Source: Psychromarinibacter sediminicola (GTDB taxonomy: Bacteria; Pseudomonadota; Alphaproteobacteria; Rhodobacterales; Rhodobacteraceae). From it: a stretch of 64,000 nucleotides of DNA. Below the pieces are notes generated by a model, which saw only the letters and a list, made by a program, of their open reading frames with translations, ran no database searches and was not told the DNA's origin. This document shows positions 1 through 18,727 of this stretch, piece after piece. Location: contig NZ_JARGYC010000004.1 of NCBI RefSeq assembly GCF_029168335.1, forward strand, positions 1 through 64,000. The letters run 5' to 3'. A program made the translations under genes and the position numbers. Numbering within the stretch: position 1 is the first letter of the stretch; the number at the start of each line of letters is the position of its first letter.

Positions 1-4
1 GGAT

Positions 5-24: not shown

Positions 25-32
25 AAACCACG

Positions 33-1379
33 CTACCCGAGCGTCTCGGCCAGCCACTTCTCCAGCCAGTGGATCGTGTAGTCGCCGGTCTGCACCGCCG
101 GCGCCTCCAGGAGGTCGCGGAACAGCGGCACCGTCGTGTCGATGCCGTCGACGATCAGCTCGCCCAGCGCCCGGTTCAGGCGGGCCAGCGCGGCGGGGCG
201 GTCCTGGGCGTGGACGATCAGCTTGCCGATCAGGCTGTCGTAATAGGGCGGGATGCGGTAGCCGTCATAGAGCGCCGAATCCATCCGCACGCCGAGCCCG
301 CCGGGCGCGTGATACTGGGTGATCCGGCCGGGGGACGGCGAGAAGCTGGGCAGTTTCTCGGCGTTGATACGCACCTCGATGGCGTGGCCGTTGACCGTCA
401 GATCCTCCTGGCGGAAGGACAGCGGCGCGCCGGCGGCCACGCGGATCTGCTCCTGCACCAGGTCGACGCCGAACACCGCCTCGGTCACCGGGTGCTCCAC
501 CTGCAGGCGGGTGTTCATCTCGATGAAGTAGAATTCGCCGTCCTCGTAGAGGAACTCGATGGTGCCGGCGCCGGCATAGCCGATCTCGGCCACCGCGTCG
601 GCACAGGTCTTGCCGATGCGGGCGCGGGTCTCGGCGTCGATCGCCGGGCCGGGCGCCTCTTCGAACACCTTCTGGTGGCGGCGCTGCAGCGAGCAGTCGC
701 GTTCGCCCAGATGCACGGCGTTGCCCTTGCCGTCGCCGAAGACCTGGATCTCGATATGCCGCGGGTTGCCGAGATATTTCTCGATATAGACCTCGTCATT
801 GCCGAAGGCGGCCCTGGCCTCGGCGCGCGCGGTGGGGAAGGCGTGGCCCATCTCCTCCTCGGAGCGGGCGAGCTTCATGCCGCGGCCGCCGCCGCCGGCC
901 GTGGCCTTGACGATGACCGGATAGCCGAATTCGGCGCCGATCCGCCTGGCCGCGTCCAGGTCCGGCACGCCGCCCTCGGAGCCGGGCACGCAGGGCACGC
1001 CCAGGTTCTTCATCGTCTCCTTGGCGGTGATCTTGTCGCCCATCAGGCGGATATGTTCCGCCGAGGGGCCGATGAAGGTGATCTCGTGATCCTCGACGAT
1101 CTGCACGAAGGAGGCGTTTTCCGACAGGAAGCCGTAGCCCGGGTGGATCGCCTGGGCGCCCGATATCTCGCAGGCGGCGATGATCGAGGGCACCGAAAGA
1201 TAGCTCTGCGTGGCCGAGGGCGGGCCGATGCAGATCGCCTCGTCGGCCATCCTCACATGCATCGCGTCGGCGTCGGCGGTGGAATGCACGGCGACCGAGG
1301 AAATCCCCATCTCGCGGCAGGCGCGGACGACGCGGAGGGCGATCTCGCCCCGGTTCGCGATCAGGATCTTGTCGAACAT
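33..1379 (-). CDS. accC: Acetyl-CoA carboxylase biotin carboxylase subunit
   Basis: This 448-aa protein carboxylates the biotin carried by AccB using ATP and bicarbonate, the first half-reaction of malonyl-CoA and fatty acid synthesis in the cytoplasm. The sequence starts with the biotin-carboxylase N-domain ([14 protein letters not shown]). It has the glycine-rich ATP loop GGGGRGMK around residues 162-169, lysines equivalent to K116 and K159, and the active-site segment [14 protein letters not shown]. Length matches the family. Its start codon directly follows the accB stop codon on the same strand, so the two are co-transcribed and probably translationally coupled. This is a housekeeping gene with no anomalies. 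Confidence 0.97.
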
Positions 1380-1868
1380 CTATTCGATGACCATCAGCGG
1401 GGCGCCGAACTCCACGGGCGTCGAGTCTTCGACCAGCACGCGCTTGACCGTTCCGGCGCGGGGCGAGGGGATGTGGTTCATGGTCTTCATCGCCTCGACG
1501 ATGAGCAGGGTCTGGCCCTCGGCCACGGCGTCGCCGACCTTGACGAAGGCGGCCGCGCCCGGTTCGGGCGACAGATAGGCGGTGCCGACCATCGGCGAGG
1601 TCACGGCGCCGGGCAGGTCGGCGGGATCCTCGACCGCCGGGGTCTCGGGCGGGGTCGGCGTGGCGGGGGTGTCCGGCGCCGCCGGAGGCGCGGGCGCCGC
1701 GGCGGGCGCGGCGGACTGCCGGGCGACCTTGGACAGGCGCAGGGTCAGCTTGCCGGTCTCCTTGCTGCCGCGCTCGACCTCCAGCTCGGCGAGGTCGTTC
1801 GAGCGCAGGATTTCCGCCATCGCCTGCACGAAGGCCACGTCGTCGTCGTCGTTCGTCGGATTCGCCAT
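1380..1868 (-). CDS. accB: Biotin carboxyl carrier protein of acetyl-CoA carboxylase
   Basis: This 162-aa protein carries the covalently bound biotin of acetyl-CoA carboxylase. The C-terminal biotinyl domain contains EAMKTMN with the target lysine at residue 128. A Pro/Ala/Thr-rich flexible linker (about residues 50-85) precedes it, and a short N-terminal helical domain comes first. The start ATG gives MANPTNDDDD, and the gene lies directly upstream of accC. It is divergent from the plus-strand gene at 2025, with about 150 bp between them. Order and sizes are typical of alphaproteobacteria. Confidence 0.96.
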   Translation of the reverse strand: MANPTNDDDDVAFVQAMAEILRSNDLAELEVERGSKETGKLTLRLSKVARQSAAPAAAPAPPAAPDTPATPTPPETPAVEDPADLPGAVTSPMVGTAYLSPEPGAAAFVKVGDAVAEGQTLLIVEAMKTMNHIPSPRAGTVKRVLVEDSTPVEFGAPLMVIE

Positions 1869-2024
1869 CAGTGTCTCGTTCCCGAAGCCGTTTCTGCCGC
1901 CGGGGGCGGTGTTCGGCGCTTATACGCGACCGGCCAGCCACATAAAAGCCGTTTCGGCCGCCCGCTTGACAAGGGGCGCGCGCATCGACAAGCCGTTCGC
2001 CGGATGTAACGGAGCAGGCAGGCG

Positions 2025-2912
2025 ATGGCAACGAACGGTCAGGCGCCCCGGTCGGGGCCGGGCGGCGGCGAGCGGCGGCTGATCATCTCGCTGTCGTCGA
2101 TCCCGTCGCGGTTCGACAAGCTGGGGCCGACGCTGAACGGCCTGTTGCGCCAGGAGGCGCGGGTGGAGCGGATCGAGCTCTATATCCCGAAGCGCTATCG
2201 CCGGTTCCCGGACTGGGACGGCACGTTGCCGGAGGTGCCCGGCGGCGTGGATATCGTCCGCTGCGACGACGATCTGGGGCCGGCGACCAAGGTGCTGTAT
2301 GCGGCGAAGAAGTACCGCGGGCAGGACGACGTGGACATCCTGCTGTGCGACGACGACCGGCGCTACAAGCCGCATTGGGCGCAGACCTATGTCGAGGCGC
2401 GCAAGGCGCATCCCGAGGCATGCCTGGCGATCGCCGGGTTCGAGGCGGACCGCTACGGGCAGTCGGCGATGAAGGACCGCCCGAAGCCGCGCGCGAAAAA
2501 GCGCAGCCGGTTCTGGGATCTGAAGTTCAAGGCGCAGATGGTCTGGGAATACCTGTTCCCGCCGGTCGAACGGAAATACCTGCGCGAGCCGGTGCGGCGG
2601 CTGTTCCGGCAGTCGGGCTATGCCGACTGTTTCGAGGGCTTCGCGGGGGCGATGGTCAAGCCCGACTTCTTCGACGACCTGGCCTTCGACATCCCGCCCG
2701 TGGTCTGGACGGTGGACGACGTGTGGCTCTCGGGGCACTTGGCGCGGCGCGGCGTGCCGATCTGGATCATCGCCGACCAGTTCGACACGCAGCACACGCC
2801 GGCCGGAATCTCCGACGCGCTGTATCTCTCCGAGATCGAGGGCGCCGACCGGGACGCGGCGAACAAGCGCTGCATCGCCTATTTCCGGGAGACCTACGGG
2901 ATCTGGCCATGA
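2025..2912 (+). CDS. Glycosyltransferase-like protein, paralog A
   Basis: This 295-aa protein has no signal peptide or membrane segment. I read it as a GT-A-like glycosyltransferase: the start is LIISLSSIPSRFDKLGPTLNGLL, typical of proteins taking apart a nucleotide-sugar fold. A DDD cluster follows a hydrophobic strand (ILLCDDDRRY), as in DXD metal-binding motifs, and there is a downstream WTVDDVWLSGHL block. It is a clear paralog of the next gene, sharing YRRFPDWDGTLPEVP, WGPATK, RSGYAD and a C-terminal YGIW. The stop overlaps the next start (ATGA), so both are translated from one mRNA. Donor and acceptor are unknown. Confidence 0.75.
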   Translation: MATNGQAPRSGPGGGERRLIISLSSIPSRFDKLGPTLNGLLRQEARVERIELYIPKRYRRFPDWDGTLPEVPGGVDIVRCDDDLGPATKVLYAAKKYRGQDDVDILLCDDDRRYKPHWAQTYVEARKAHPEACLAIAGFEADRYGQSAMKDRPKPRAKKRSRFWDLKFKAQMVWEYLFPPVERKYLREPVRRLFRQSGYADCFEGFAGAMVKPDFFDDLAFDIPPVVWTVDDVWLSGHLARRGVPIWIIADQFDTQHTPAGISDALYLSEIEGADRDAANKRCIAYFRETYGIWP

Positions 2913-3739
2913 GCCGCGAAGAGCTTGTCGTGTCGCTGTCCTCGATCCCGCCGCGGTTCGGGCGGATCGGGGCGACGCTGCGCTCGCTGGTGGCGCAGGA
3001 GGTGCCGGTCTCGGTCGAGCTGCAGGTGCCGCGCCGCTACCGCAGGTTTCCCGACTGGGACGGGACGCTGCCGGAAGTGCCCGACGGGGTGACGATCCGG
3101 CGGGTCGAGGAGGACTGGGGCCCGGCGACGAAGCTTCTGGGCGCGCTGGCCGGGCGGGCGGAGGACGCGCGGATCCTGTTCTGCGACGACGATCAGCATT
3201 ACCCGCCCGACTGGGCCGCGCGCTTCCTGGCGCTGGAGCGGGACCGGCCGAACGCGGCGCTGGCGCTGCTGGGGATGCAGGCCTATGACGCGGCCGGGGG
3301 CAGCCGGGAACGGGCGTTGCAGCCCCGGGCCACGCGGCGCTGGCGGGTGACGGATCTGGAGTTCCAGCTGCGCTTTCTCTGGCAGGACCTGACGCGCGGG
3401 CGCGGCCTGCCTTCGCCGGGGCGGCGGGTGGTCAAGCGGTCGGGCTATGCCGACATCTTCGAGGGGCGCGGCGGCGTGCTGGTGCGGCCCGCGTTCTTTC
3501 CCGACGACGTGTTCGACGTGCCCGCGCCCTGCTGGACGGTGGACGACGTCTGGCTGTCGGCCTGCGTCGCGCTGCAGGGGGTGCCGATCTGGGTGCAGGG
3601 CGGCTATCGCGACCCCACGGATACCGAGGCCGAAGCGGTCGACCCGCTGTGCCGCAGCGACGTGGGCGGCACGGACCGGGCGGCGCAGAACCGCGCGGCC
3701 ATTGAGTATCTGCGCAAGACCTACGGCATCTGGCGCTGA
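2909..3739 (+). CDS. Glycosyltransferase-like protein, paralog B
   Basis: This 276-aa protein is the tandem paralog of the preceding gene. The start ATG at 2909 overlaps the upstream TGA by four bases. It keeps the same order of blocks: SLSSIPPRFGRIGATLRSL at the N-terminus, YRRFPDWDGTLPEVP, WGPATK, ILFCDDDQHY, RSGYADIFEG, WTVDDVWLSACV and the C-terminal KTYGIWR. The middle third is less similar, so the two copies may use different acceptors. A cytoplasmic or membrane-associated glycosyl transfer role is inference from the GT-A-like pattern. The DDD motif suggests metal-dependent sugar-nucleotide binding. Confidence 0.75.
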   Translation: MSREELVVSLSSIPPRFGRIGATLRSLVAQEVPVSVELQVPRRYRRFPDWDGTLPEVPDGVTIRRVEEDWGPATKLLGALAGRAEDARILFCDDDQHYPPDWAARFLALERDRPNAALALLGMQAYDAAGGSRERALQPRATRRWRVTDLEFQLRFLWQDLTRGRGLPSPGRRVVKRSGYADIFEGRGGVLVRPAFFPDDVFDVPAPCWTVDDVWLSACVALQGVPIWVQGGYRDPTDTEAEAVDPLCRSDVGGTDRAAQNRAAIEYLRKTYGIWR

Positions 3740-3787
3740 ATCGGGCAGAACGGCTCCGAGACCGGCCGGCCCGTGCCGCGCCGAAAT

Positions 3788-3803
3788 TTTACCGTTTGAT
3801 AAA
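3788..3803. promoter_or_regulatory. Degenerate RutR-like operator upstream of preT
   Basis: TTTACCGTTTGATAAA matches 10 of 14 fixed positions of the E. coli RutR consensus TTGACCA-NN-TGGTCAA. It lies 53 nt upstream of the preT start, in an AT-rich patch unlike the surroundings. It would place preT-VOC-preA under the same regulator as the hydrolase operon. The site is predicted from sequence only. Confidence 0.4.
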
Positions 3804-3856
3804 AGATCAGCCTGTGGCACAGTTTCCCGACAAAAGACGCGACAGGGAGACGCGCG

Positions 3857-5194
3857 ATGGGCAATACGCAGTTCACCCCCGGCGTGGTGGCCGGGCGGCT
3901 TCCGGGCGACGTGCTGGACGACAACTTCGGCGACCTGCATCCGCCGCTCGACCCGCACGAGGCCGCCGTGGCCGCGGATCGCTGCTATTTCTGCTACGAC
4001 GCGCCCTGCGTCGAGGCGTGCCCGACCTCGATCGACATCCCGCTGTTCATCCGCCAGATCGCGACCGGCACGCCCGAGGCGGCGGCGGAGACGATCTTCG
4101 ACCAGAACATCCTGGGCGGCATGTGCGCCCGGGTCTGCCCGACCGAGACCCTGTGCGAGGAGGTCTGCGTGCGCGAGGTGGCCGAGGGCAAGCCGGTCGA
4201 GATCGGCCGGCTGCAGCGCTATGCCACCGATACGGTGATGGCGAAGAACTCGCATCCCTATGAGCGTGCCGCGGCCACCGGCAAGCGCGTGGCCGTTGTC
4301 GGCGCGGGGCCGGCGGGGCTGGCCTGCGCGCATCGGCTGGCGATGAAGGGGCATGACGTGGTGATCTACGATGCCCGGCCGAAGCCCGGCGGGCTGAACG
4401 AATACGGGATCGCCTCCTACAAGACGGTGGACGGGTTCGCGCAGAAAGAGGTCGACTGGCTGATGCAGATCGGCGGGATCGAGCTGCGCGCCGGCCAGGC
4501 GCTGGGCGAGGCGGTGACGCTGGAGGCCTTGCGCGAGGACTGCGACGCGGTGTTCCTCGGGATGGGGCTGGCGGGCGTGAACGCGCTGCGCGCCGAGGGC
4601 GAGGAGACCGGGAACGTCGCCGACGCGGTCGATTTCATCGCCGATCTGCGGCAGGCGGGCGATCTGTCGAAGCTGGCCATCGGTCGCAACGTGGTGGTGA
4701 TCGGCGGCGGAATGACCGCCATCGACGCGGCGGTGCAGTCGAAGCTTCTGGGCGCGGAGGCAGTCACGCTGGTCTACCGGCGCGGGCAGGAGCGGATGTC
4801 GGCCTCGGAGTACGAACAGGAACTGGCGGCGTCGCAGGGGGTGCGGATCGTGCATCACGCGATGCCGGTCCGCGTGATCGGCAACGGCGCGGTGCGCGAG
4901 GTGGAGTTCGAGTATACCCAGGACGGCCCCAACGGGCTGGAGCCCGCGGGCGAGACCTTCCGGCTGCCCGCCGACCAGGTGTTCCGCGCCATCGGCCAAC
5001 GGCTGGAGGGCGCGCCGGACGGGATCACGCTGGAGGGCGGCAAGATCGCCGTCTCCGGCGCCGGGCGGACCTCGGTGGCGGGCGTCTGGGCCGGCGGCGA
5101 CTGTGCCGCGGGCGGTGACGACCTGACCGTGACGGCGGTGGCCGAGGGGCGCGACGCCGCGGAGGACATCCATGCAAGACTCGCCGCAGAGTAG
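3857..5194 (+). CDS. preT: NAD-dependent dihydropyrimidine dehydrogenase, small (PreT-like) subunit
   Basis: This 445-aa subunit carries electrons from NAD(P)H to PreA for reducing uracil and thymine to their dihydro forms, step one of reductive pyrimidine breakdown. The N-terminus has two cysteine clusters for Fe-S centres (C43, C46, C51, C55 and C90, C94, C100, C104). A dinucleotide-binding GAGPAG follows near residues 149-154, and a second GGGMTA lies in the middle of the protein. This is the glutamate-synthase small-subunit-like architecture expected of PreT. GAGACGCGCG before the ATG is a modest ribosome binding site. The last 23 bp overlap the following VOC gene, so translation is coupled. 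Confidence 0.93.
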   Translation: MGNTQFTPGVVAGRLPGDVLDDNFGDLHPPLDPHEAAVAADRCYFCYDAPCVEACPTSIDIPLFIRQIATGTPEAAAETIFDQNILGGMCARVCPTETLCEEVCVREVAEGKPVEIGRLQRYATDTVMAKNSHPYERAAATGKRVAVVGAGPAGLACAHRLAMKGHDVVIYDARPKPGGLNEYGIASYKTVDGFAQKEVDWLMQIGGIELRAGQALGEAVTLEALREDCDAVFLGMGLAGVNALRAEGEETGNVADAVDFIADLRQAGDLSKLAIGRNVVVIGGGMTAIDAAVQSKLLGAEAVTLVYRRGQERMSASEYEQELAASQGVRIVHHAMPVRVIGNGAVREVEFEYTQDGPNGLEPAGETFRLPADQVFRAIGQRLEGAPDGITLEGGKIAVSGAGRTSVAGVWAGGDCAAGGDDLTVTAVAEGRDAAEDIHARLAAE

Positions 5195-5573
5195 CCGCTC
5201 GCTGTTCGAGCGCATCCACTTCCAGTCGATCGACGCGACCGACGTGGAGCGTGCGCGCGACTTCTACGTCGAAAAGCTGGGCTTCCGGGTCGAGCGCGAC
5301 GCGCCCTATGGCGACAGCCGGTGGATATTCGTCGAGATCCCGGACGCCGAGACCCTGCTGCATTTCAACGATGTCGACGAGATCGCGCCGCAGGACACGC
5401 CGGCGCTGGTGCTGGTGACCGGCAATGTGGACGTGGCCTGCGACGAGTTGGAGCGTCGCGGCGTGCCGATCCACATGGGGCCGGACGATGCGCCCTGGGA
5501 GCCCGGCATCCGCTGGGCGATGATCCATGACAGCGAGGGCAACCTCGTGCTGATCCAGACCGTGAAGAGCTAG
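5172..5573 (+). CDS. VOC (glyoxalase/bleomycin resistance fold) protein between preT and preA
   Basis: This 133-aa cytoplasmic protein has a single vicinal-oxygen-chelate unit pair. The pattern is HFQSIDATDVERARDFYVEKLGF at the N-terminus and GIRWAMIHDSEGNLVLI at the C-terminus. It starts inside the preT coding region and ends 35 nt before preA, so it is embedded in the dihydropyrimidine dehydrogenase operon. No substrate can be read from the sequence. A role in handling a reactive pyrimidine-breakdown product, such as a semialdehyde, is inference from position. Family members are very diverse (lyases, dioxygenases, resistance proteins). Confidence 0.85.
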   Translation: MQDSPQSSRSLFERIHFQSIDATDVERARDFYVEKLGFRVERDAPYGDSRWIFVEIPDAETLLHFNDVDEIAPQDTPALVLVTGNVDVACDELERRGVPIHMGPDDAPWEPGIRWAMIHDSEGNLVLIQTVKS

Positions 5574-5608
5574 CCGGCCGCGCCGGCGCAGCCAGAAGGA
5601 GACGACCA

Positions 5609-6913
5609 ATGGCCGACCTTTCCAGCGACTTCGTGGGGATCAAGTCCCCGAATCCGTTCTGGCTGGCCTCTGCCCCGCCGACGGACAAGGAATACAACGT
5701 CCGCCGCGCCTTCGAGGCGGGCTGGGGCGGCGTCGTGTGGAAGACGCTGGGCTCCGAGGGGCCGCCGGTGGTGAACGTGAACGGCCCGCGCTATGGCGCG
5801 ATCTGGGGGGCGGATCGGCGATTGCTGGGGCTGAACAATATCGAGCTGATCACCGACCGGCCTTTGCAGGCGAACCTGGAGGAGATGGCGCGGGTCAAGG
5901 CGAACTATCCCGACCGCGCGATCGTCGCCTCGATCATGGTGCCCTGCGAAGAGGACGCCTGGCGCGAGATCCTGGAGCGGGTGGCGGAGACCGGCGTGGA
6001 CGGGATCGAGCTGAACTTCGGCTGCCCGCACGGGATGTCCGAGCGCGGCATGGGCAGCGCCGTGGGGCAGGTGCCGGAATACATCGAGATGGTCACGCGG
6101 TGGTGCAAGACGTATTACGACAAGCCGGTGATCGTGAAGCTGACGCCGAACATCACCGATATCCGCAAGCCGGCGAAGGCGGCGAAGGACGGCGGCGCCG
6201 ATGCGGTCAGCCTGATCAACACGATCAATTCGATCACCGCGGTGGACCTCGACGATTTCTGCCCGGAGCCGACGATCGACGGCAAGGGGTCGCATGGCGG
6301 CTATTGCGGGCCGGCGGTCAAGCCCATCGCGCTGTCGATGGTGTCGGAGATCGCGCGCGATCCCGAGACGCACGGGCTGCCGATCTCCGGCATCGGCGGG
6401 GTGACGACCTGGCGCGACGCGGCGGAGTTCCTGGCGCTGGGCGCCGGCAACGTGCAGGTCTGCACGGCGGCGATGACCTACGGGTTCAAGGTGGTGCAGG
6501 AGATGATCTCGGGCCTGTCGCAGTACCTGGACGAGAAGGGCATGGCGCTGGACGACCTGGTAGGCCGGGCGGTGCCGAACGTGACCGACTGGCAGTACCT
6601 GAACCTGAACTACGTGACCAAGGCGCGGATCGACCAGGATCTGTGCATCAAGTGCGGCCGCTGCTACGCGGCCTGCGAGGATACCAGCCACCAGGCCATC
6701 GCGATGAAGCCGGGGCGGGTGTTCGAGGTGAAGGACGACGAATGCGTCGCCTGCAACCTGTGCGTCAATGTCTGCCCGGTGGAGGACTGCATCACCATGG
6801 AGCGGCTGACGCCGGGCACGCTGGACGAGCGGACGGGCCGGGTGGTGGAGTCGGACTATGCCAACTGGACGACGCATCCGAACAACCCGGCGGCCAAGGA
6901 AGCCGCGGAATAG
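5609..6913 (+). CDS. preA: NAD-dependent dihydropyrimidine dehydrogenase, catalytic (PreA-like) subunit
   Basis: This 434-aa subunit reduces the 5,6 double bond of uracil or thymine on FMN, using electrons delivered by PreT. Residues 1-330 form a dihydroorotate-dehydrogenase-like TIM barrel with NFGCPHGMSERGMG, where C139 is the expected active-site acid. The C-terminal part carries two 4Fe-4S motifs, CIKCGRCYAAC and CVACNLCVNVCPVEDC. AGAAGGAGACGACC gives a clear ribosome binding site. Length and domains match bacterial PreA. With preT and the intervening VOC gene it forms one operon. Confidence 0.95.
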   Translation: MADLSSDFVGIKSPNPFWLASAPPTDKEYNVRRAFEAGWGGVVWKTLGSEGPPVVNVNGPRYGAIWGADRRLLGLNNIELITDRPLQANLEEMARVKANYPDRAIVASIMVPCEEDAWREILERVAETGVDGIELNFGCPHGMSERGMGSAVGQVPEYIEMVTRWCKTYYDKPVIVKLTPNITDIRKPAKAAKDGGADAVSLINTINSITAVDLDDFCPEPTIDGKGSHGGYCGPAVKPIALSMVSEIARDPETHGLPISGIGGVTTWRDAAEFLALGAGNVQVCTAAMTYGFKVVQEMISGLSQYLDEKGMALDDLVGRAVPNVTDWQYLNLNYVTKARIDQDLCIKCGRCYAACEDTSHQAIAMKPGRVFEVKDDECVACNLCVNVCPVEDCITMERLTPGTLDERTGRVVESDYANWTTHPNNPAAKEAAE

Positions 6914-6999
6914 CTGGCGCCTCGGGGCGCTGGCCTCGGGCCGGGCCCCGTCGGTTGGCGGCGTCCTGCCGCGCCGGATGTCGTGAATTGCGACTGAGG

Positions 7000-7569
7000 T
7001 CAGGCGGCGGGTTCTGCCACCTCGGTGCCGGTGTCTTCGGGCACCTCGGCGTCACCGGTCGGGGCCGGGGAGGCGTTTGCCGTTTCGGGCGTGGTGGGCG
7101 TCGTCTTTTCGGGCGCCTCGGGCGCGTCCGGCAGATCGGCCGAGACCGCGGCCTCGGCGCTCTGCCTGGCCATCTCGGCCCGTTCGAGCGCCGCTTCGGC
7201 CTTCTCGACCTTGATCGCCGCCTCGGCCTCGGCGCGGCTGCGCTCGCCCTCCAGCCGTTCGATGGCGCGGCGGAGGTCGCGCTCCAGCTCCAGGATATTG
7301 GCCTGGAACGCGGGCGAGGGGCCCAGCAGCGTGTTGTCGTCGATCTTGGGCCGGTCGCGATAGGCCGGGCCGCTGTCGCCGTCCCCGTCGCGCCGGTCGC
7401 GCACCGGGATCCGGCCGGTCGATTGCGGCGCGGTGTCCATCCGGGCCTGCGGGCCGCGCCCGCCGGCGGACGCCTCGACCGGGGTCAGCGCCACCGCGCC
7501 GGCATCGGCCTGCGCCCGGATCGGTATGACACCCGCGCCCAATTGTGGAATTGGGGCCAATGCATCCAT
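7000..7569 (-). CDS. Hypothetical coiled-coil, Ala/Pro-rich protein
   Basis: This is a hypothetical 189-aa protein. The start at 7569 was chosen because AGGAG lies nine bases upstream; an in-frame longer form from 7629 is possible but lacks such a site. The N-terminal third is low-complexity. It is followed by LLGPSPAFQANILELERDL, which leads into a charged heptad-like helix (about residues 100-150, rich in E, R and A). The tail is Pro/Thr/Glu-rich and ends in AEPAA. No signal peptide or membrane segment is seen. It is convergent with preA. The function is not recognised, and nothing ties it to pyrimidine use except position. Confidence 0.6.
   Translation of the reverse strand: MDALAPIPQLGAGVIPIRAQADAGAVALTPVEASAGGRGPQARMDTAPQSTGRIPVRDRRDGDGDSGPAYRDRPKIDDNTLLGPSPAFQANILELERDLRRAIERLEGERSRAEAEAAIKVEKAEAALERAEMARQSAEAAVSADLPDAPEAPEKTTPTTPETANASPAPTGDAEVPEDTGTEVAEPAA
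7538..7555. repeat. Perfect 7-4-7 palindrome at the start of the hypothetical gene
   Basis: CCCAATT-GTGG-AATTGGG lies within codons 5 to 11 of the minus-strand gene that starts at 7569. In the mRNA it would form a hairpin about 14 nt after the start codon. As DNA it could be a dyad operator. Confidence 0.5.
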
Positions 7570-7664
7570 CTTCGTCAACTCCTGCACTCGGACTTCTCTG
7601 GGCTGCAGCATAGCGCAGGCGGACGGCACGAAGTGTTAACGGAAAGCGGAATCCGATCTCGTGG

Positions 7665-8279
7665 TTAACCGGGGCGCAGCGCGCGCCGGTAGAGCTGTTC
7701 GAGGAACTCCGCGGCGTCCGTGAAATGCGCCTCGCCCGGCCCGAGGATGCCGCGGACCTGGGCGTCGAAATCGGCGTAGTGCTGGGTGGTGGCCCAGATC
7801 GAGAAGATCAGGTGATGCGGGTCGACCCGCGCGATGCGGCCCGCGTCGGCCCAGTGCCCGATCAGCGCCGCCTTCTCGTCCACCAGCGTCTTCAGCGGGC
7901 CTTCGATGATGTCGGCGATGCGGGGGGCGCCCTGAACGATCTCGTTTGCAAAAAGCCGACTTTCGCGCGGAAATTCACGCGCCATTTCCAGCTTTCGTAG
8001 CACATATCCGACAATCTCCTCGACCGGCTCGCCGCTGTCGTCCAGCGCGCGCAGCGGGTCGAGCCAGAGGTCCAGCAGACCGGCCAGAAGCGCGACGTGG
8101 ATCGCCTCCTTGCCGGGGAAGTAGTACAGCAGGTTGGGCTTCGACAGACCGGCGGTCTTGGCGATCCGGTCCAGCGTCGCGCCGCGGAAGCCGGCCTGCG
8201 AGAACACGTCCAGCGCCGCCTCCAGAATGGCGGCGCGGTTTCTTTCCTGGATGCGTGTTCGGGGCGCGGATGCGTCCAT
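7665..8279 (-). CDS. rutR: TetR-family regulator, RutR-like
   Basis: This 204-aa DNA-binding protein is close in size to E. coli RutR, which senses uracil or thymine. The N-terminal TetR helix-turn-helix spans about residues 20-60, with the recognition segment GLSKPNLLYYFPGKEAIH. The helical ligand domain continues to residue 204 (IFSIWATTQHYADFDAQV). The ATG at 8279 was chosen over longer in-frame readings because the HTH then begins at the usual distance. It is divergent from the M20 hydrolase and lies within the pyrimidine catabolic locus. A near-consensus RutR operator lies between them, which supports the assignment and suggests autoregulation. Confidence 0.88.
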   Translation of the reverse strand: MDASAPRTRIQERNRAAILEAALDVFSQAGFRGATLDRIAKTAGLSKPNLLYYFPGKEAIHVALLAGLLDLWLDPLRALDDSGEPVEEIVGYVLRKLEMAREFPRESRLFANEIVQGAPRIADIIEGPLKTLVDEKAALIGHWADAGRIARVDPHHLIFSIWATTQHYADFDAQVRGILGPGEAHFTDAAEFLEQLYRRALRPG

Positions 8280-8342
8280 TTTTGTCCTTTTTTCCGGGCA
8301 GGATCGCGACCCGCGCGGGCCTCCGGCGAGAGTGCTTGACGT

Positions 8343-8361
8343 GCTACCATGCCGTGGTAGC
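8343..8361. promoter_or_regulatory. Second dyad in the rutR/hydrolase intergenic region
   Basis: GCTACCA-TGCCG-TGGTAGC is a perfect 7-5-7 inverted repeat six bases to the left of the RutR-like operator. It shares the ACCA...TGGT core with that operator but has wider spacing. A TTGACG hexamer at 8336-8341 could be a -35 element overlapping it. It may be a second, weaker site for RutR or a site for another regulator. Confidence 0.45.
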
Positions 8362-8367
8362 GTCCTT

Positions 8368-8383
8368 CTGACCATTTGGTCAA
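8368..8383. promoter_or_regulatory. Predicted RutR operator
   Basis: CTGACCATTTGGTCAA differs from the E. coli RutR consensus TTGACCA-NN-TGGTCAA at only the first base. It is the core of a near-perfect palindrome. It lies 73 nt upstream of the hydrolase start and about 90 nt upstream of rutR, positioned to control both directions. Confidence 0.75.
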
Positions 8384-8456
8384 ACTCTTTGCGGCCAGCG
8401 GCGGCGGCCTGGCGGAACGGAGCCGCACAAGAGGCGCGAATCGGAGAGGAGATACC

Positions 8457-9707
8457 ATGGCGGCACCCGGCGAGAACCTTCGGATCAACGGCGATCGGCT
8501 GTGGGAGTCGATCATGGAGATGGCCAGGATCGGCCCCGGCGTGGCGGGCGGCAACAATCGCCAGACGCTGACCGATGCGGATGCCGAGGGGCGCGCGCTG
8601 TTCCAGAGCTGGTGCGAGGCGGCGGGCCTGTCGATGGGGCTGGACACGATGGGCAACATGTTCGCCCGGCGCGAGGGCACCGACCCGGACGCGCTGCCGG
8701 TCTATGTGGGCTCGCATCTCGACACCCAGCCGACCGGCGGCAAGTATGACGGCGTGCTGGGCGTGCTGGGCGGGCTGGAGATCATCCGGTCGCTGAATGA
8801 CCTGGACATCAAGACGAAGCACCCGATCGTGGTGACCAACTGGACCAACGAGGAAGGCACGCGGTTCGCCCCCGCGATGCTGTCCTCGGGCGTGTTCGCC
8901 GGCGTTCACGAGCAGGACTGGGCCTATGATCGCGAGGATGCCGAGGGCAAGCGGTTCGGCGACGAGTTGGTGCGGATCGGCTGGAAGGGCGACGAAGAGG
9001 TGGGCCAGCGCAAGATGCATGCCTTCTTCGAATTGCATATCGAACAGGGCCCGATCCTGGAGGCCGAGGGCAAGGATATCGGCGTGGTCACCCACGGCCA
9101 GGGACTGTCCTGGACGCAGGTGACGATCACCGGGAAAGAGGCGCATACCGGCTCCACCCCGATGCCGATGCGGCGCAACGCCGGGCTGGGCATGGCGCGG
9201 GTGCTGGAGCTGGTGGACGACATCGCCCGCTCGCACAAGCCGCATGCCGTGGGCGCGGCGGGGCATATCGACATCTATCCCAACTCGCGCAACGTGATCC
9301 CGGGCAAGGCGGTGTTCACGGTGGATTTCCGCTCGCCCGACCTGGAGGTGATTAAGAAGATGGAGACGCGGATGCGGCAGGAGGCCGAGGAGATCTGCGA
9401 CGACATGGGGCTGAAGGTGAAGTTCGAGAAGGTCGGCGGCTTCGATCCGGTGGAATTCGACAAATCCTGCGTCGAGGCGGTGCGGAACGCGGCGGAACGC
9501 CTGGGATACTCGCACAGAAACATCGTCTCGGGCGCCGGGCACGATGCCTGCTGGATCAACCGGGTGGCGCCGACGGCGATGGTGATGTGCCCCTGCGTCG
9601 ACGGGCTGTCGCATAACGAGGCCGAGGAGATCTCGCCCGAATGGGCGCGCGCGGGCGCCGAGGTGCTGTTCCACGCGGTCGTCGAGACGGCGGAGATCGT
9701 GGAATGA
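8457..9707 (+). CDS. Zn-dependent N-carbamoyl-beta-alanine amidohydrolase-like (M20) hydrolase
   Basis: This 416-aa enzyme is probably the last step of reductive pyrimidine breakdown, hydrolysing N-carbamoyl-beta-alanine to beta-alanine, CO2 and ammonia. It shows the M20/M28 two-metal ligands: GSHLDTQPTGGKYDG (H87, D98), TNEEG (E132/E133), HIEQG (H194) and a C-terminal SHNEAEE histidine. The start at 8457 has GGAGAGGAGATACC upstream. Alternative family activities are allantoate or L-carbamoyl-amino-acid hydrolysis. Neighbouring dihydropyrimidinase and preTA favour beta-ureidopropionase. Its stop codon overlaps the next gene's start (ATGA). Confidence 0.9.
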   Translation: MAAPGENLRINGDRLWESIMEMARIGPGVAGGNNRQTLTDADAEGRALFQSWCEAAGLSMGLDTMGNMFARREGTDPDALPVYVGSHLDTQPTGGKYDGVLGVLGGLEIIRSLNDLDIKTKHPIVVTNWTNEEGTRFAPAMLSSGVFAGVHEQDWAYDREDAEGKRFGDELVRIGWKGDEEVGQRKMHAFFELHIEQGPILEAEGKDIGVVTHGQGLSWTQVTITGKEAHTGSTPMPMRRNAGLGMARVLELVDDIARSHKPHAVGAAGHIDIYPNSRNVIPGKAVFTVDFRSPDLEVIKKMETRMRQEAEEICDDMGLKVKFEKVGGFDPVEFDKSCVEAVRNAAERLGYSHRNIVSGAGHDACWINRVAPTAMVMCPCVDGLSHNEAEEISPEWARAGAEVLFHAVVETAEIVE

Positions 9708-9934
9708 GGGGGCCGGGATTTGTCGCCGTCGCCGCGCTGATCTTCGCGCTGCCCGCCGGGGCGGCCGAGCATCGCCAGACCGTAGAGGTGACCCCGCTGG
9801 ACCACGCGCTGCCGCTGGGCTTCGCCGAACAGCTTCCGGCCGGTGTCACGCCCGCGGACGTCTTCGTCAGCGAGGACGGCTGCTACTATTACCGCAAGGA
9901 CGGACAGTACTTCTTGCTCGACTGCGTCGGCTGA
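9704..9934 (+). CDS. Small exported protein of unknown function
   Basis: This 76-aa protein has a signal peptide: MRGPGFVAVAALIFALPAGAAEH with likely cleavage after AGA-A. The mature part is about 55 residues and ends DGQYFLLDCVG, with two cysteines (CYYY and DCV) that could form a disulfide. The start overlaps the hydrolase stop by four bases, so it belongs to this operon. The function is not recognised. It resembles small periplasmic proteins of Rhodobacteraceae, but I cannot tie it to transport or catalysis. Confidence 0.7.
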   Translation: MRGPGFVAVAALIFALPAGAAEHRQTVEVTPLDHALPLGFAEQLPAGVTPADVFVSEDGCYYYRKDGQYFLLDCVG

Positions 9935-9997
9935 CACGGCGCGCGAAACACCGAACCGAGGGCCGGCAACACGGCCCCAACACAACAGGGGACTGAC

Positions 9998-11455
9998 ATG
10001 ACCACAGTCATCAAGAACGGAACCGTCGTGACCGCCGACCTGACCTACAAGGCGGATGTCGCGGTCGACGGCGGCAAGATCGTCGAGATCGGGCCGAACC
10101 TGAAGGGCGACGAGGAGCTGGACGCGACGGGCTGCTACGTGATGCCCGGCGGGATCGACCCGCACACGCATCTGGAGATGCCGTTCATGGGGACCTACTC
10201 CACCGACGATTTCGAGAGCGGCACGCGCGCGGCGCTGGCCGGCGGGACCACGATGGTGGTGGACTTCGCGATCCCCAGCCCGGACGGGCAGGGCCTGCTG
10301 GACGCGATCCAGATGTGGGACAACAAGTCGACGCGCGCCGCCTGCGACTATTCCTTCCACATGGCGATCACCTGGTGGGGCGAGCAGGTGTTCAACGAGA
10401 TGGAAACGGTGGTGAAGGACCGCGGCATCACCACCTTCAAGCACTTCATGGCCTACAAGGGCGCGCTGATGGTCAATGACGACGAGCTGTTCGCGTCGTT
10501 CCAGCGCTGCGGCGAACTGGGCGCGCTGCCGCTGGTCCATGCCGAGAACGGCGACGTGGTGGCCGACCTGCAGGCCAAGCTGATGGCCGAGGGCAATAAC
10601 GGCCCCGAGGCGCATGCCTATTCCCGGCCGCCGGCCGTCGAGGGCGAGGCCGCGAACCGCGCGATCATGATCGCCGACATGGCGGGCGTGCCGCTTTACG
10701 TGGTGCATGTCTCCTGCGAGGAGGCGCACGAGGCGATCCGCCGGGCGCGGATGCAGGGCAAGCGGGTCTATGGCGAGCCGCTGATCCAGCACCTGACGCT
10801 GGACGAAGGCGAGTATTTCGACAAGGACTGGGACCATTCCGCCCGCCGCGTGATGTCGCCGCCCTTCCGCAACAAGCAGCACCAGGAGTCGCTCTGGGCG
10901 GGGCTGCAGTCGGGCTCGCTGTCGGTGGTGGCGACGGACCACTGCGCCTTCACCACCGAGCAGAAGCGCTACGGCGTGGGCGACTTCACCAAGATCCCCA
11001 ACGGCACCGGCGGGTTGGAAGACCGGATCCCGATGCTGTGGACCTATGGCGTGTCGACCGGGCGGCTGACCCCGAACGAGTTCGTCGCGGTCACCTCGAC
11101 GAACAGCGCCAAGATCCTGAATTGCTACCCGAAAAAGGGCGCGATTCTGGTGGGCGCGGATGCCGATATCATGGTGCTGGACCCGGAGAAGGAAAAGACG
11201 ATCAGTGCCAAGACCCAGCAGTCGGCCATCGACTACAACGTCTTCGAGGGCAAGCACGTGAAGGGCCTGCCGCGCTATGTCCTGACCCGCGGCAAGGTCG
11301 CGGTGCTGGACGGCGACATGAAGCACGAGCCCGGGCACGGGGAATTCGTCAAGCGCGAGCCGGTGAACCCGGTGAACAAGGCGCTGTCGACCTGGAAGGA
11401 GCTGACCGCGCCGCGCAAGGTGGAGCGGACGGGCATTCCGGCCAGCGGGGTCTGA
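9998..11455 (+). CDS. hydA: Dihydropyrimidinase (D-hydantoinase family)
   Basis: This 485-aa enzyme opens the ring of dihydrouracil or dihydrothymine to give N-carbamoyl-beta-alanine or its methyl analogue. It is a cyclic amidohydrolase with the binuclear zinc ligands DPHTHLE (H56, H58), the FMAYKG motif whose lysine (K154) is expected to be carbamylated, LVHAENGD, VVHVSCEEAH and ATDHCAF. Length fits the family. An AACAGGGGACTGAC ribosome binding site precedes the ATG. It acts between PreTA and the M20 hydrolase, completing the three-step reductive pathway encoded in the window. Confidence 0.96.
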   Translation: MTTVIKNGTVVTADLTYKADVAVDGGKIVEIGPNLKGDEELDATGCYVMPGGIDPHTHLEMPFMGTYSTDDFESGTRAALAGGTTMVVDFAIPSPDGQGLLDAIQMWDNKSTRAACDYSFHMAITWWGEQVFNEMETVVKDRGITTFKHFMAYKGALMVNDDELFASFQRCGELGALPLVHAENGDVVADLQAKLMAEGNNGPEAHAYSRPPAVEGEAANRAIMIADMAGVPLYVVHVSCEEAHEAIRRARMQGKRVYGEPLIQHLTLDEGEYFDKDWDHSARRVMSPPFRNKQHQESLWAGLQSGSLSVVATDHCAFTTEQKRYGVGDFTKIPNGTGGLEDRIPMLWTYGVSTGRLTPNEFVAVTSTNSAKILNCYPKKGAILVGADADIMVLDPEKEKTISAKTQQSAIDYNVFEGKHVKGLPRYVLTRGKVAVLDGDMKHEPGHGEFVKREPVNPVNKALSTWKELTAPRKVERTGIPASGV

Positions 11456-11470
11456 GCCGGAGGCCGGGGC

Positions 11471-11950
11471 GTGCAATGGATCGACCTGATCGCCGATATC
11501 TCGACGGTCGCCGCCGCGCTGGCGGTGATCGTCACCACGGTCTTCGTGTGGCGGCAGGTCGGGCTGCAGCGCACCGACGTGGACACCGAGGTGCGGCGGC
11601 TGCAGCGGGAATCGCTGGCGACCATCCACGAGGCGCTGCAGGACGAGAAGTTCCGGGATGCGCGGGCGGAGTTCTTTGCCGGCCCGCATCAGCGCGCCTA
11701 TGACGACCTGTCGGATGTCGAGAAACGCCGGGCGCGGTTCATCCTGGCGGTCTACACCCTGCTGGCCCGGATGGTGGAGAGCGGCGCGATCGACGAAGGG
11801 CTCTATCGCGACTACTGGCGCGGCACGCTGCTGCGCGACTGGGCGCGGCTGGAGAATTTCGTGGCCGGAGAACGGCTCGGCACGCGCAACCACGGGCTGT
11901 TCACCGGCACGGAGCGGCTGGCGGAAAGCTGGAGCAAGGCCGATGCCTGA
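11471..11950 (+). CDS. Membrane-anchored DUF4760-like protein
   Basis: This 159-aa protein begins with GTG, 15 nt after the hydA stop. One N-terminal membrane helix (ISTVAAALAVIVTTVFVWRQV) is followed by a soluble helical region with LATIHEALQDEKFRDARAEF and DVEKRRARFILAVYTLLARMV. The order is reminiscent of DUF4760-type proteins, but that match is from memory. It lies inside the pyrimidine operon with no known role there. The close spacing and shared strand make co-transcription likely. Confidence 0.7.
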   Translation: MQWIDLIADISTVAAALAVIVTTVFVWRQVGLQRTDVDTEVRRLQRESLATIHEALQDEKFRDARAEFFAGPHQRAYDDLSDVEKRRARFILAVYTLLARMVESGAIDEGLYRDYWRGTLLRDWARLENFVAGERLGTRNHGLFTGTERLAESWSKADA

Positions 11951-11959
11951 CGGGGTCCG

Positions 11960-12355
11960 GTGATGTTGCGGCTGCGCACGCTGACGGGCCTGATCGCGGC
12001 CTATGTGACGGGAACCTGGGTGATCGGGTTTCTCGCCGCCGGGCCGTCGGGGGCGGGGCTGGTGGACGTGCTGCGGCTGCCGTTCCAGCTGATGCTGCCG
12101 CTGGGCCTTCTGGCCCTGGGGATCGGCGCCCTGCTGGTGGTCTTCATCGGGCGGCGCGGGCCGAAGGGACCGGTCCCCTATGCGGTGGGCGTGGCCTTCC
12201 TGCCGCTTGTCTCGCTCGTCGCGCTGCGCGCGATGATGGGCGTGTCGCTGACCGAGCACCTGTTCGACAGCCCCGGTTTCCTGGCGGCGCTCTTCGCCGG
12301 GGGCGGGGTCGCCGGCCTGGTGTTCTGGTGCGTCTATCACTGGGGAGAGGCGTGA
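11960..12355 (+). CDS. Small integral membrane protein
   Basis: This hypothetical 131-aa protein has about four hydrophobic stretches (residues roughly 8-25, 35-60, 72-90, 103-127) and short polar loops. The start is GTG at 11960 or the adjacent ATG at 11963; I cannot decide between them. Its stop overlaps the next start. No motif identifies a transporter or enzyme. It is part of the tightly packed hydA-to-ABC-transporter run and may be an accessory membrane component. Confidence 0.65.
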   Translation: MMLRLRTLTGLIAAYVTGTWVIGFLAAGPSGAGLVDVLRLPFQLMLPLGLLALGIGALLVVFIGRRGPKGPVPYAVGVAFLPLVSLVALRAMMGVSLTEHLFDSPGFLAALFAGGGVAGLVFWCVYHWGEA

Positions 12356-12786
12356 TGGCGGCGCTGCGCGGGGTGCTCGAAGCGGCGGTCTATGTGGAGG
12401 ACCTGGACGCGGCGGCGGGCTTCTACGCGGGCCTGCTGGGGCTTGAGGAGATCCTGCGGGTCGAGGGGCGGCACGTGTTCTTCCGCTGCGGCACGACGGT
12501 CGTGCTGTGCTTCATCGCCGAAGCGACACGGGTGCCGACCGACAACGCCAGGCTGCCGGTGCCGCCGCACGGGGCCGACGGCGCGGGGCATATCTGCTTC
12601 GCCGTCGCGGGCGCGGAGCTTGACGAATGGCGCGGGCGGCTGGAGGCTGCCGGCGTGGGGATCGAGGCGGATTTCGAATGGCCGAACGGGGCGCGGTCGA
12701 TCTACGTGCGCGATCCGGCGGGAAACTCGGTAGAATTCGCCGAGCCGCGGCTGTGGAACATCGAGATGGGGGACGGATACGCTTGA
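12355..12786 (+). CDS. VOC-family protein in the pyrimidine operon
   Basis: This 143-aa protein has the glyoxalase/bleomycin fold pattern: AAVYVEDLDAAAGFYAGLLGLEE at the N-terminus and NGARSIYVRDPAGNSVEFAEP at the C-terminus. GGGGAGAGG precedes the start, which overlaps the previous stop (GTGATG). It is the second VOC gene in this locus and differs clearly from the one between preT and preA. The substrate is unknown. The next gene begins at a TTG overlapping this stop. Confidence 0.82.
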   Translation: MAALRGVLEAAVYVEDLDAAAGFYAGLLGLEEILRVEGRHVFFRCGTTVVLCFIAEATRVPTDNARLPVPPHGADGAGHICFAVAGAELDEWRGRLEAAGVGIEADFEWPNGARSIYVRDPAGNSVEFAEPRLWNIEMGDGYA

Positions 12787-13559
12787 GCGTCATCGAGGCA
12801 AGCGACCTGGGACTGACCTTCCAGACGAATGACGGGCCGGTGCATGCCCTGTCGAAGATCGGCCTGACCGTGGAGAAGGGCGACTTCGTCTCGTTCATCG
12901 GGCCGTCGGGCTGCGGCAAGACCACCTTCCTGCGCTGCATCGCGGCGCTGGAGACGCCGACCGAGGGCACGCTGACGGTGAACGGGATGACCGCCGACGA
13001 GGCGCGGCGCAACCGGGCCTACGGCTACGTGTTTCAGGCGGCAGGGCTGTACCCGTGGCGGACGATTGCGGGAAATGTGCGGCTTCCGCTGGAAATCATG
13101 GGGTATTCCAAGGCCGAAATGTCGGAAAGGGTCAAGCGGGTGCTGGACCTCGTCGACCTGGCGGGCTTCGAGAAGAAGTATCCCTGGCAATTGTCGGGCG
13201 GGATGCAGCAGCGCGCCTCGATCGCTCGGGCGCTGGCCTTCGACGCCGACATCCTGCTGATGGACGAGCCCTTCGGCGCGCTGGACGAGATCGTGCGCGA
13301 CCACCTGAACGAGCAGCTCCTGAAGCTCTGGGACCGGACCGAGAAGACCATCGCCTTCGTGACCCACTCGATCCCCGAGGCGGTGTATCTCTCGACCCGG
13401 ATCGTGGTGATGAGCCCGCGGCCGGGCCGGATCACCGACGTGATCGAAAGCCCGCTGCCGAAGGAGCGGCCGCTGGACATCCGCGACTCGACGGAGTTCC
13501 TGGAGGTGGCGCACCGGGTGCGCGAGGGCCTGCGCGCGGGGCACGCCTATGACGAGTGA
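12783..13559 (+). CDS. ABC transporter ATP-binding protein, NitT/TauT/ThiZ type
   Basis: This 258-aa cytoplasmic ATPase energises the importer encoded downstream. It shows Walker A GPSGCGKTT, Q-loop FQAAGLYPWRT, signature LSGGMQQR, Walker B ILLMDEPFGALD and switch THS. The start is TTG overlapping the upstream TGA; no ATG or GTG sits at a suitable place and the N-terminus then reads as expected for the family. The NMT1-type binding protein and the pathway genes suggest uptake of a pyrimidine or its degradation intermediate. Confidence 0.93.
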   Translation: MSVIEASDLGLTFQTNDGPVHALSKIGLTVEKGDFVSFIGPSGCGKTTFLRCIAALETPTEGTLTVNGMTADEARRNRAYGYVFQAAGLYPWRTIAGNVRLPLEIMGYSKAEMSERVKRVLDLVDLAGFEKKYPWQLSGGMQQRASIARALAFDADILLMDEPFGALDEIVRDHLNEQLLKLWDRTEKTIAFVTHSIPEAVYLSTRIVVMSPRPGRITDVIESPLPKERPLDIRDSTEFLEVAHRVREGLRAGHAYDE

Positions 13560-13568
13560 GGGCCGGAG

Positions 13569-13778
13569 ATGAGCGTGCGCCGCTGGCTGATGGCGATCGG
13601 GCTGGTGCTGTGGCTGGTGCTGCTCGGCGTCTGGGTGCTGGGCGAGCCGCCCGAGGAGGGCGCCCTGTCGACCGCGCTGGGCATCGCGATCGTGGTGCTG
13701 CCGCTGCTTCTGGCCAACGAGATCATGACCCTGTTCCAGGCCTGGCTGCGCAAGCGGCGGGAGAAGCGGGATGCGTAA
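13569..13778 (+). CDS. Small two-TM membrane protein within the ABC operon
   Basis: This 69-aa protein has two hydrophobic helices (about residues 7-25 and 34-57) and a basic tail RKRREKRDA. It lies between the ATPase and the first permease gene and overlaps the latter by 8 bp. A GAGGGCCGGAG ribosome binding site precedes the ATG. It is too short for a permease. An accessory role in the transporter is inference from its place. Confidence 0.65.
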   Translation: MSVRRWLMAIGLVLWLVLLGVWVLGEPPEEGALSTALGIAIVVLPLLLANEIMTLFQAWLRKRREKRDA

Positions 13779-14628
13779 CGTCTTTCCGATCCTGACCGTC
13801 GTCGCGGCCATCGTGCTTCTGTGGTACGCGGGGGCGGTGTGGATGAACAGCGCCTGGACGCTGGACCGCGCGGACGGGCCGCTGAGCTTCGGCGAGGTCG
13901 TGCGCGACACGATGAGCCAGGACCGCCCGCGGCTGCCGGCGCCGCACCAGATCGGCGCCGAGCTCTACGACACGGTGATCGACAAGGCTGTCACCTCGAA
14001 ACGGAGCCTCGTGTTCCACGGCTGGGTGACGCTGCGCTCGACGCTGACGGGCTTCGCGCTGGGCACGATCATGGGCATCCTCATGGCGGTCGCGGTGGTC
14101 TATTCGCGCACGGCGAGCATGACGCTGATGCCGTGGGCGATCATCAGCCAGACCATCCCCATCGTCGCCATCGCGCCGATGATCATCGTGCTGCTGGCCT
14201 CCATCGGCGTCGAGGGGCGCGCGGTGCCGAAGGCGATCATCTCGGCCTATCTGTGCTATTTCCCGGTGCTCGTGGGCATGGTGAAGGGCCTGCGCTCGCC
14301 CGACGCGATGCAGCTGGACCTGATGCGCACCTACAATGCGAGCGCGTCGCAGGCGTTCTGGAAGCTGCGGCTGCCCTCGTCGGTGCCCTACCTGTTCACC
14401 TCGCTGAAGGTCGGGATCGCGGCGGCGCTGGTGGGCACCATCGTGGGCGAGCTGCCGACCGGCGCGATCCGCGGGCTGGGCGCGCGCATCCTGATCGGCG
14501 ACCAGTTCGGCAACCCGATCATGATCTGGTCGGCGCTGATCGCCGCGGCGGTGCTGGCCGGCGTGCTGGTGAGCCTGGTGGCCGTGATGCAGGGCGTGGC
14601 GATGAAGCGGATGGGGTTCGCGCGATGA
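13771..14628 (+). CDS. ABC transporter permease 1 (NitT/TauT-like)
   Basis: This 285-aa inner-membrane permease has about six hydrophobic segments. The EAA-like loop region is around DLMRTYNASASQAFWKLRLPSSVPYLF, the usual ATPase contact of BPD transport permeases. A long first periplasmic segment (about residues 25-85) precedes the BPD domain. It pairs with the second permease gene at 14696, so the transporter has a heterodimeric membrane part. The gene overlaps the preceding small membrane protein. Confidence 0.92.
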   Translation: MRNVFPILTVVAAIVLLWYAGAVWMNSAWTLDRADGPLSFGEVVRDTMSQDRPRLPAPHQIGAELYDTVIDKAVTSKRSLVFHGWVTLRSTLTGFALGTIMGILMAVAVVYSRTASMTLMPWAIISQTIPIVAIAPMIIVLLASIGVEGRAVPKAIISAYLCYFPVLVGMVKGLRSPDAMQLDLMRTYNASASQAFWKLRLPSSVPYLFTSLKVGIAAALVGTIVGELPTGAIRGLGARILIGDQFGNPIMIWSALIAAAVLAGVLVSLVAVMQGVAMKRMGFAR

Positions 14629-14651
14629 TCCGGGGTCGGTCGAGATTTCAT

Positions 14652-14684
14652 GCCTCCGGCGGGCGTATTCTTGCCAAGATGAAG
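14652..14684 (+). repeat. Short intergenic repeat, copy 1
   Basis: A 33-bp segment between the two permease genes shares its right half (CGTATTYTTGCCARGATGAA) with the copy at 35383-35403. That is 19 of 21 identical bases when the last G is included. Similar GTATTTTTGCCAAGATGAAG strings are, from memory, common between genes of Rhodobacteraceae. Confidence 0.6.
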
Positions 14685-14695
14685 CGGGGGACGGC

Positions 14696-15541
14696 ATGGG
14701 ACTGGTGATCGCCGCGCTGATCGTCTGGGGCGTGGGCTGGGGCCTGAACGTGGCCGTGGCCAATTCGCGCCGGTCCGACACGCTCGCGGGGAAGATCGCG
14801 GTGCCCGTGGTCTTCGGGATCACCGTGATCGTGATGTGGGAACTCATGGTGCGCGGGCTGGAGGTGTCGCCCGTCATCCTGCCGGCGCCCACCGCCATCG
14901 CCGCCACCTTCGCGGCCGAGACCGAAACGCTCTGGGGCGATTTCCGGCAGACGGTGATGAAGGGCGCGCTGTCGGGCTTCGTCATCGGTTGCGCGGCGGC
15001 CTTCGCGGCGTCGCTCTTGGTGGACCGGGTGCCGTTCCTGCAGCGCGGGCTGCTGCCGATCGGGAACTTCGTGGCGGCGCTGCCGATCGTGGGGATCGCG
15101 CCGATTCTGGTGGGCTGGTTCGGCTTCGACTGGCAGTCGAAGGCGGCGGTCGTGGTGGTGATGGTGTTCTTCCCGATGCTGGTCAACACCGTCTCGGGGC
15201 TGGCCGATACCGGGCCGATGCAGCGCGACCTGATGAAGACCTATTCGGCAAGCTATTGGCAGACCTTGTGGAAACTGCGCCTGCCGGCCGCGATGCCGTT
15301 CATCTTCAACGGGCTGAAGATCTCGACGACGCTGGCGCTGATCGGGGCGATCGTGGCGGAGTATTTCGGCTCGCCGACGCGCGGCATGGGGTTTCGCATC
15401 TCGACGGAGGTGGGCCGCCTGGGCATTGATATGGTCTGGGCGGAAATCACGGTCGCCGCCATCGCGGGCTCGGTCTTTTACGGGCTGGTGGCGGCGATCG
15501 AACGGGGGCTGACCTTTTGGCATCCCTCGCAACGGACCTGA
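14696..15541 (+). CDS. ABC transporter permease 2 (NitT/TauT-like)
   Basis: This 281-aa inner-membrane permease has the EAA-like region DLMKTYSASYWQTLWKLRLPAAMPFIFN, nearly the same layout as permease 1. That indicates a duplicated pair forming a heterodimeric channel. A GCGGGGGACGGC stretch before the ATG serves as a ribosome binding site. It is followed after 34 nt by the binding-protein gene. Role: passage of the pyrimidine-type ligand across the inner membrane. Confidence 0.92.
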   Translation: MGLVIAALIVWGVGWGLNVAVANSRRSDTLAGKIAVPVVFGITVIVMWELMVRGLEVSPVILPAPTAIAATFAAETETLWGDFRQTVMKGALSGFVIGCAAAFAASLLVDRVPFLQRGLLPIGNFVAALPIVGIAPILVGWFGFDWQSKAAVVVVMVFFPMLVNTVSGLADTGPMQRDLMKTYSASYWQTLWKLRLPAAMPFIFNGLKISTTLALIGAIVAEYFGSPTRGMGFRISTEVGRLGIDMVWAEITVAAIAGSVFYGLVAAIERGLTFWHPSQRT

Positions 15542-15575
15542 GACAGGTCGCAACGACAACAAGGAGGTAACGACC

Positions 15576-16559: not shown

Positions 16560-16585
16560 GCATCCCGCCCGCCGGATCAACGAAA

Positions 16586-16613
16586 AAAGGCCCCGTTCCG
16601 GCGGGGCCTTTCT
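16586..16613. terminator. Bidirectional rho-independent terminator
   Basis: The stem AAAGGCCCC / GGGGCCTTT with loop GTTCCGGC has an A-run on the left and TTTCTT on the right. It ends the pyrimidine operon on the plus strand and can end the lipoprotein gene on the minus strand. Confidence 0.85.
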
Positions 16614-16632
16614 TCATGGCGGCGTCCGGGCC

Positions 16633-18621: not shown

Positions 18622-18727
18622 GGGGGTCTCCGGTTTGTTGAACGGGCGGAGTTTGGGGGAGAGCGAAAGCGGGTGCAAGCCGAAGTGTCCGAGGTTGGAC
18701 GGGGTGCTATGTCGCTGATATTGCTAT

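Follow-up and report, generated by a model that had tools for sequence, protein, structure and literature searches.

One close known relative of the system reported here is Escherichia coli RutR, which, according to PMC10891134, recognises a palindromic consensus of approximately 16 bp, contacts uracil through W77, Y97, W167, Q171 and Q179', and requires lysines K52 and K62 for DNA binding. Its targets are rutABCDEFG and carAB. A second described system is PydR of Pseudomonas putida, a RutR-like control of the reductive pathway according to the title of Hidese et al. 2012 as cited in PMC7332683; what it probably shares with the present locus is a RutR-like TetR protein in control of reductive pyrimidine breakdown, with the dihydropyrimidine dehydrogenase gene as the point of control. 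RutR regulons have also been predicted for 68 genomes across 13 taxa of Proteobacteria, the motif varying from taxon to taxon (RegPrecise/PMC5343134). The main text of that study, in the sections covered, names no reductive-pathway RutR targets and no operator embedded in a -35 box. Because PydR control and RutR regulons have been published, the basic principle is already known, and the association of RutR with the reductive pathway was preceded by PydR, as far as the cited title describes it. The arrangement analysed here is real, widely conserved and mostly known; a variant operator upstream of preT and a single switch are its new parts. Literature searches on RutR in Rhodobacterales or together with preTA returned nothing relevant, and no description of a -35-embedded preT operator or of a single switch was found in the literature searched.

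The window (the whole 64 kb stretch of Psychromarinibacter sediminicola DNA that was analysed) contains a reductive (Pyd/PreTA) pyrimidine locus, as had been proposed from the sequence, in which PreT, PreA, a dihydropyrimidinase and a putative beta-ureidopropionase occur together. On one side of the regulator lie preT (3857-5194, plus strand; PF14691 and PF07992), the NAD(P)-binding subunit of dihydropyrimidine dehydrogenase, which adjoins preA in relatives, and preA itself (5609-6913, plus strand), the catalytic subunit (NF006183, 720 bits against a cut-off of 335). On the other side, all on the plus strand, are an M20 amidohydrolase and probable beta-ureidopropionase (8457-9707; NF006769 702 bits, TIGR01879 397 bits), the dihydropyrimidinase hydA (9998-11455; TIGR02033 595 bits, cut-off 393), and a probable pyrimidine ABC importer (12780-16559) comprising an ATPase (12780-13559), two permeases (13771-14628 and 14696-15541) and a binding protein (15576-16559). 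The importer was recognised by family matches, and in most relatives it accompanies the cluster; its substrate is deduced. PreA and the dihydropyrimidinase exceed equivalog cut-offs and PreT was identified by its domains; since the family match of the hydrolase reaches the subfamily level only, its beta-ureidopropionase role is taken from the cluster. No RutA was found in the genome, the best match being 28% identical over 113 aa (E 8e-5).

Several further features of these loci were observed. NCBIfam labels the 8457-9707 product an allantoate amidohydrolase, where the neighbourhood implies a beta-ureidopropionase, and this label is likely a systematic misnaming here. In many relatives a probable beta-alanine:pyruvate transaminase is the first gene after the operator (e.g. 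L044 5986-7302 and L048 11071-12393); it is missing at this position in the window (8384-8456), the aminotransferases of the genome being just 28-37% identical to it, and in three same-genus genomes 400-650 bp at this place hold no recognised gene. Only some relatives share the small protein of glyoxalase fold encoded between the two pre genes (5172-5573) or the DUF4760 protein encoded after hydA (11471-11950). At L314, a mixed locus, rut genes are accompanied by an ABC transporter of the kind found here (54-71% identical). Rfam searches of window positions 1-20000 found no families.

The regulator is encoded on the minus strand (rutR-type TetR gene, 7665-8279, 204 aa) and is the only protein of the genome with the YcdC/RutR C-terminal domain PF08362, which it matches at 158 bits against a cut-off of 25. 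It is 47% identical to E. coli RutR, and solved RutR structures exist at this 47% identity. The NCBIfam RutR equivalog cut-offs are missed (TIGR03613, 234.7 of 368 bits; NF011584, 212.1 of 230 bits). As the TIGR03613 cut-off was passed in a single one of 398 genomes sampled across the phylum, it is very narrow; we name the protein RutR-type and not an equivalog of the E. coli regulator. The E. coli uracil contacts correspond to W72, Y92, W162, Q166 and Q174, and lysines K52 and K62 to K47 and K57, all seven residues being invariant across 11 aligned RutR-type proteins. From this conservation of contact residues, the regulator likely senses uracil and recognises the same DNA as E. coli RutR. 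The likeness between the two comprises sequence identity, the uracil contacts and tested DNA lysines, a divergent gene layout and the type of operator.

Operator 1 (TCTGACCATTTGGTCAAA, 8367-8384, no strand assigned) was located where the original prediction had placed it, in the divergent region between the minus-strand RutR-family TetR gene (7665-8279) and the plus-strand M20 hydrolase gene (8457-9707), the divergent promoter there carrying a TTGACCAnnTGGTCAA-type operator. The letters at 8368-8383 are CTGACCATTTGGTCAA, with the core TGACCA-TT-TGGTCA (8369-8382), and differ, as was claimed, by one base from TTGACCAWWTGGTCAA, which we take to be the E. coli RutR consensus. The E. coli rutA/rutR box itself, GTGGACTAAACGGTCAAA (NC_000913), has three mismatches to that consensus. 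The site is the sole match in the 64 kb at up to three mismatches, where shuffled sequence yields 0.05 expected matches to the consensus. Its 14-bp core, TGACCATTTGGTCA, is a perfect dyad, expected by base composition 0.11 times per genome and 3.6e-6 times in this 177-bp intergenic stretch, and the exact TGACCANNTGGTCA occurs as a single copy in the whole 5.03 Mb genome. Allowing one mismatch in the core recovers several further matches across the genome; their PWM scores are mostly low, and we adopted none of them as a target. With a PWM trained on rutR-adjacent sites of relatives only, operator 1 scores 30.7, the top of the window, where the 99th percentile of the best score per 400 bp is 7.0.

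A predicted promoter for the hydrolase/hydA operon lies immediately upstream of the dyad, on the plus strand, with a -35 box TTGACG (8336-8341) and a -10 box TAGCGT preceded by TGG (8358-8363). In relatives this appears as a conserved CTTGAC-N16-TAGCGT: TTGAC was found at the fixed offset in 39 of 42 genomes, and TAGC or TAAC in 37 of 42, with a spacer of 16 in all 37. Generic sigma-70 scans found no promoter at operator 1 or at the preT operator described below, so both promoter calls rest on conservation. Operator 1 starts a few bases after the -10 box and spans the predicted start site, which is the classical blocking position expected of a repressor. A second dyad (8343-8361, GCTACCA/TGGTAGC) was considered as an extra operator and discarded, its left arm lacking conservation and its right arm being the -10 region, which is conserved.

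Loss of the dyad in close relatives, which would have counted against the site, was looked for and not seen: it is intact in all four same-genus genomes examined. More widely, 42 of 54 RutR-bearing Rhodobacteraceae genomes, the window's own counted in, have a dyad with up to two mismatches no more than 350 bp from rutR; together with PF08362 and the contact residues, this bears out the earlier view of a RutR-type regulator with a conserved operator. Among the 12 genomes with no close dyad within 350 bp, at least six have a second RutR paralogue and one (G055) has a hybrid site. The same promoter and operator layout was found in Rhizobiales, with a degenerate left half (TTTGTCCAATCGGTCAAA, GTTTACCAATCGGTCAAA).

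The second RutR paralogue (about 40% identical) occurs in the cluster of many Rhodobacteraceae and Mesorhizobium, with two operator-like dyads upstream, 33-34 bp apart (TGACCGTATGGTCA, TGACCANNCGGTCA; L203 9179-9229, L213 5911-5964, L217 7634-7686 and L245 9256-9309). This has the appearance of a regulator that was duplicated and has a pair of operators to itself. A third strong RutR-like match in the genome, TTTGACCGTTTGATAAAA, was also noted at C234:117394-117411 (L072 1500-1517), between rlmB and a CoA-binding-protein gene; among the matches listed, its surroundings had no counterpart in loci from ten relatives.

Having labelled RutR relatives from across the phylum by their neighbouring genes (rut or reductive), we reconstructed trees of 94 rows, and of 58 rows with bootstraps, in which, for roughly one row in three, the stretch examined contained neither pathway; the outgroup rows were hand-picked from the larger tree. 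All rut-linked RutRs, including that of E. coli, form one clade (100/99) nested among reductive-linked proteins, which lie both around that clade and in the outgroup, so that one change of state is enough. This nesting suggests that the reductive pathway is likely the older partner and Rut the newcomer, and linkage to Rut looks like a single later event. The original prediction, in which regulator and site were kept while enzymes were exchanged, therefore stands in part: the tree bears out that a single type of regulator works with two unrelated sets of enzymes, but the direction it implies is the reverse. An unlikely though serious alternative is that no exchange took place, the rut-linked and the reductive-linked RutRs being two ancient families whose operators have stayed alike. 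The reductive-linked inner RutRs form a single group in 22% of bootstrap trees, and such a group would leave the state of the node to the outgroup. However, the outgroup proteins, which are of PydR type, are reductive-linked too, none of the 40 outer rows being rut-linked, and the mixed locus L314 combines rut genes with the transporter type of the reductive clusters. Reductive-linked RutR-like proteins from outside the Alphaproteobacteria sit on more distant branches than the regulator studied here.

On the question of a PydR-type repressor acting at the dihydropyrimidine dehydrogenase gene, a variant operator was seen ahead of preT whose occurrence follows that of RutR. This second site, missed in the original prediction, is TTTTACCGTTTGATAAAA (3787-3804, plus strand), 70 bp upstream of preT, with the second best PWM score in the window (17.3). 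Its right half supplies the predicted preT -35 box, TTGATA (3796-3801, plus strand), called from its -35 spacing to the TGTGG motif in an alignment of preT-upstream regions, and the orientation of operator 2 is fixed because this half contains the -35 box. The proposed -10 box, CACAGT after TGG (3818-3823, plus strand), is weakly defined. Of 61 family genomes, 42 contain the pattern TTTACCNNTTGATAAA, all but one of them (41) as a single copy, and control matches came to 4 in total. All 45 preT-bearing genomes with RutR that were examined have operator 2, a hybrid or a canonical RutR dyad upstream of preT, as against one of five with preT and no RutR ortholog (Fisher p 2e-5, shared ancestry ignored). 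Canonical dyads were found upstream of preT in G017 and G059, hybrids in G005 and G022, and a hybrid site, ATTGACCAATTGATAAAA, in Rhizobiales; these intermediates tie operator 2 and the canonical form to one protein. No good operator was found at the pathway clusters of G049, G078 and G079 (L167, L161 and L169), which are kept with no RutR beside them, and no RutR-type site on the stretch examined in G018, which carries preTA.

It might be argued that operator 2 belongs to another regulator or to an unusual promoter, and that RutR controls the hydrolase operon alone, given that its halves (TTTTACC/TGATAAAA) differ from the canonical ones, that its orientation is fixed with part of the site forming a -35 box, and that G048 keeps it with no RutR detected, in an assembly that is 86% complete. 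We consider this improbable: the site is missing upstream of preT in the four other RutR-negative genomes, it is replaced by canonical or hybrid RutR sites in some relatives, it is nearly single-copy per genome, and its TTTTACC half is shared with the rutR-adjacent operators of seven genomes (G008, G046, G052, G061, G067, G072 and G075). On balance we lean, with some reservation, toward a broader reading in which the evolution of RutR and its operator went along with reductive uracil breakdown, both were captured once, and later, by the Rut pathway, and alphaproteobacterial preTA is tuned by a second operator fused with a -35 box, a symmetric G-to-T change in both halves allowing a graded response from one regulator.

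From sequence, conservation, promoter geometry, residue conservation and the co-occurrence of operator 2 with RutR, we infer binding, ligand response, a start site and repression along the following lines. Operator 1 is very probably bound by the RutR-type TetR repressor encoded next to it, which would govern the reductive pathway. Weighing against this are the missed equivalog cut-offs, the 12 RutR-bearing genomes with no close dyad near rutR, and the presence of operator 2 in RutR-negative G048. At low uracil or thymine, a RutR dimer would occupy operator 1, just downstream of the -10 box and covering the start site, thereby blocking the promoter of the hydrolase-hydA-transporter operon, and would probably also occupy operator 2, over the preT -35 box, holding preTA down. 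Entry of uracil, and probably of thymine, into the conserved pocket would take RutR off the DNA, upon which the transporter and the reductive pathway would be made, converting uracil to dihydrouracil, N-carbamoyl-beta-alanine and beta-alanine. A role for RutR here mainly as an activator or anti-repressor, modelled on the indirect activation of carAB described for the E. coli protein in PMC10891134, is very doubtful, since the sites lie where they would block polymerase, one over the predicted start site and the other over a -35 box, and P. putida PydR was published, as its citation has it, as a repressor. It is scarcely credible that the 14-bp dyad arose as a palindrome by chance or serves an unrelated TetR protein, for while TetR-family operators are often alike and several one-mismatch matches exist in the genome, the sole exact copy adjoins the sole PF08362 regulator and the dyad is conserved in two orders, always at the same distance from the promoter.

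The locus offers a test case for a ligand sensor that, together with its operator, may have outlasted a complete change of the enzymes served, and suggests that the textbook Rut circuit of E. coli could be a derived form. Its canonical and -35-embedded operators may provide a simple system in which one repressor acts with two thresholds on two operons of one pathway. In practical terms, these features would allow confident annotation of pyrimidine regulons across Rhodobacterales and Rhizobiales.
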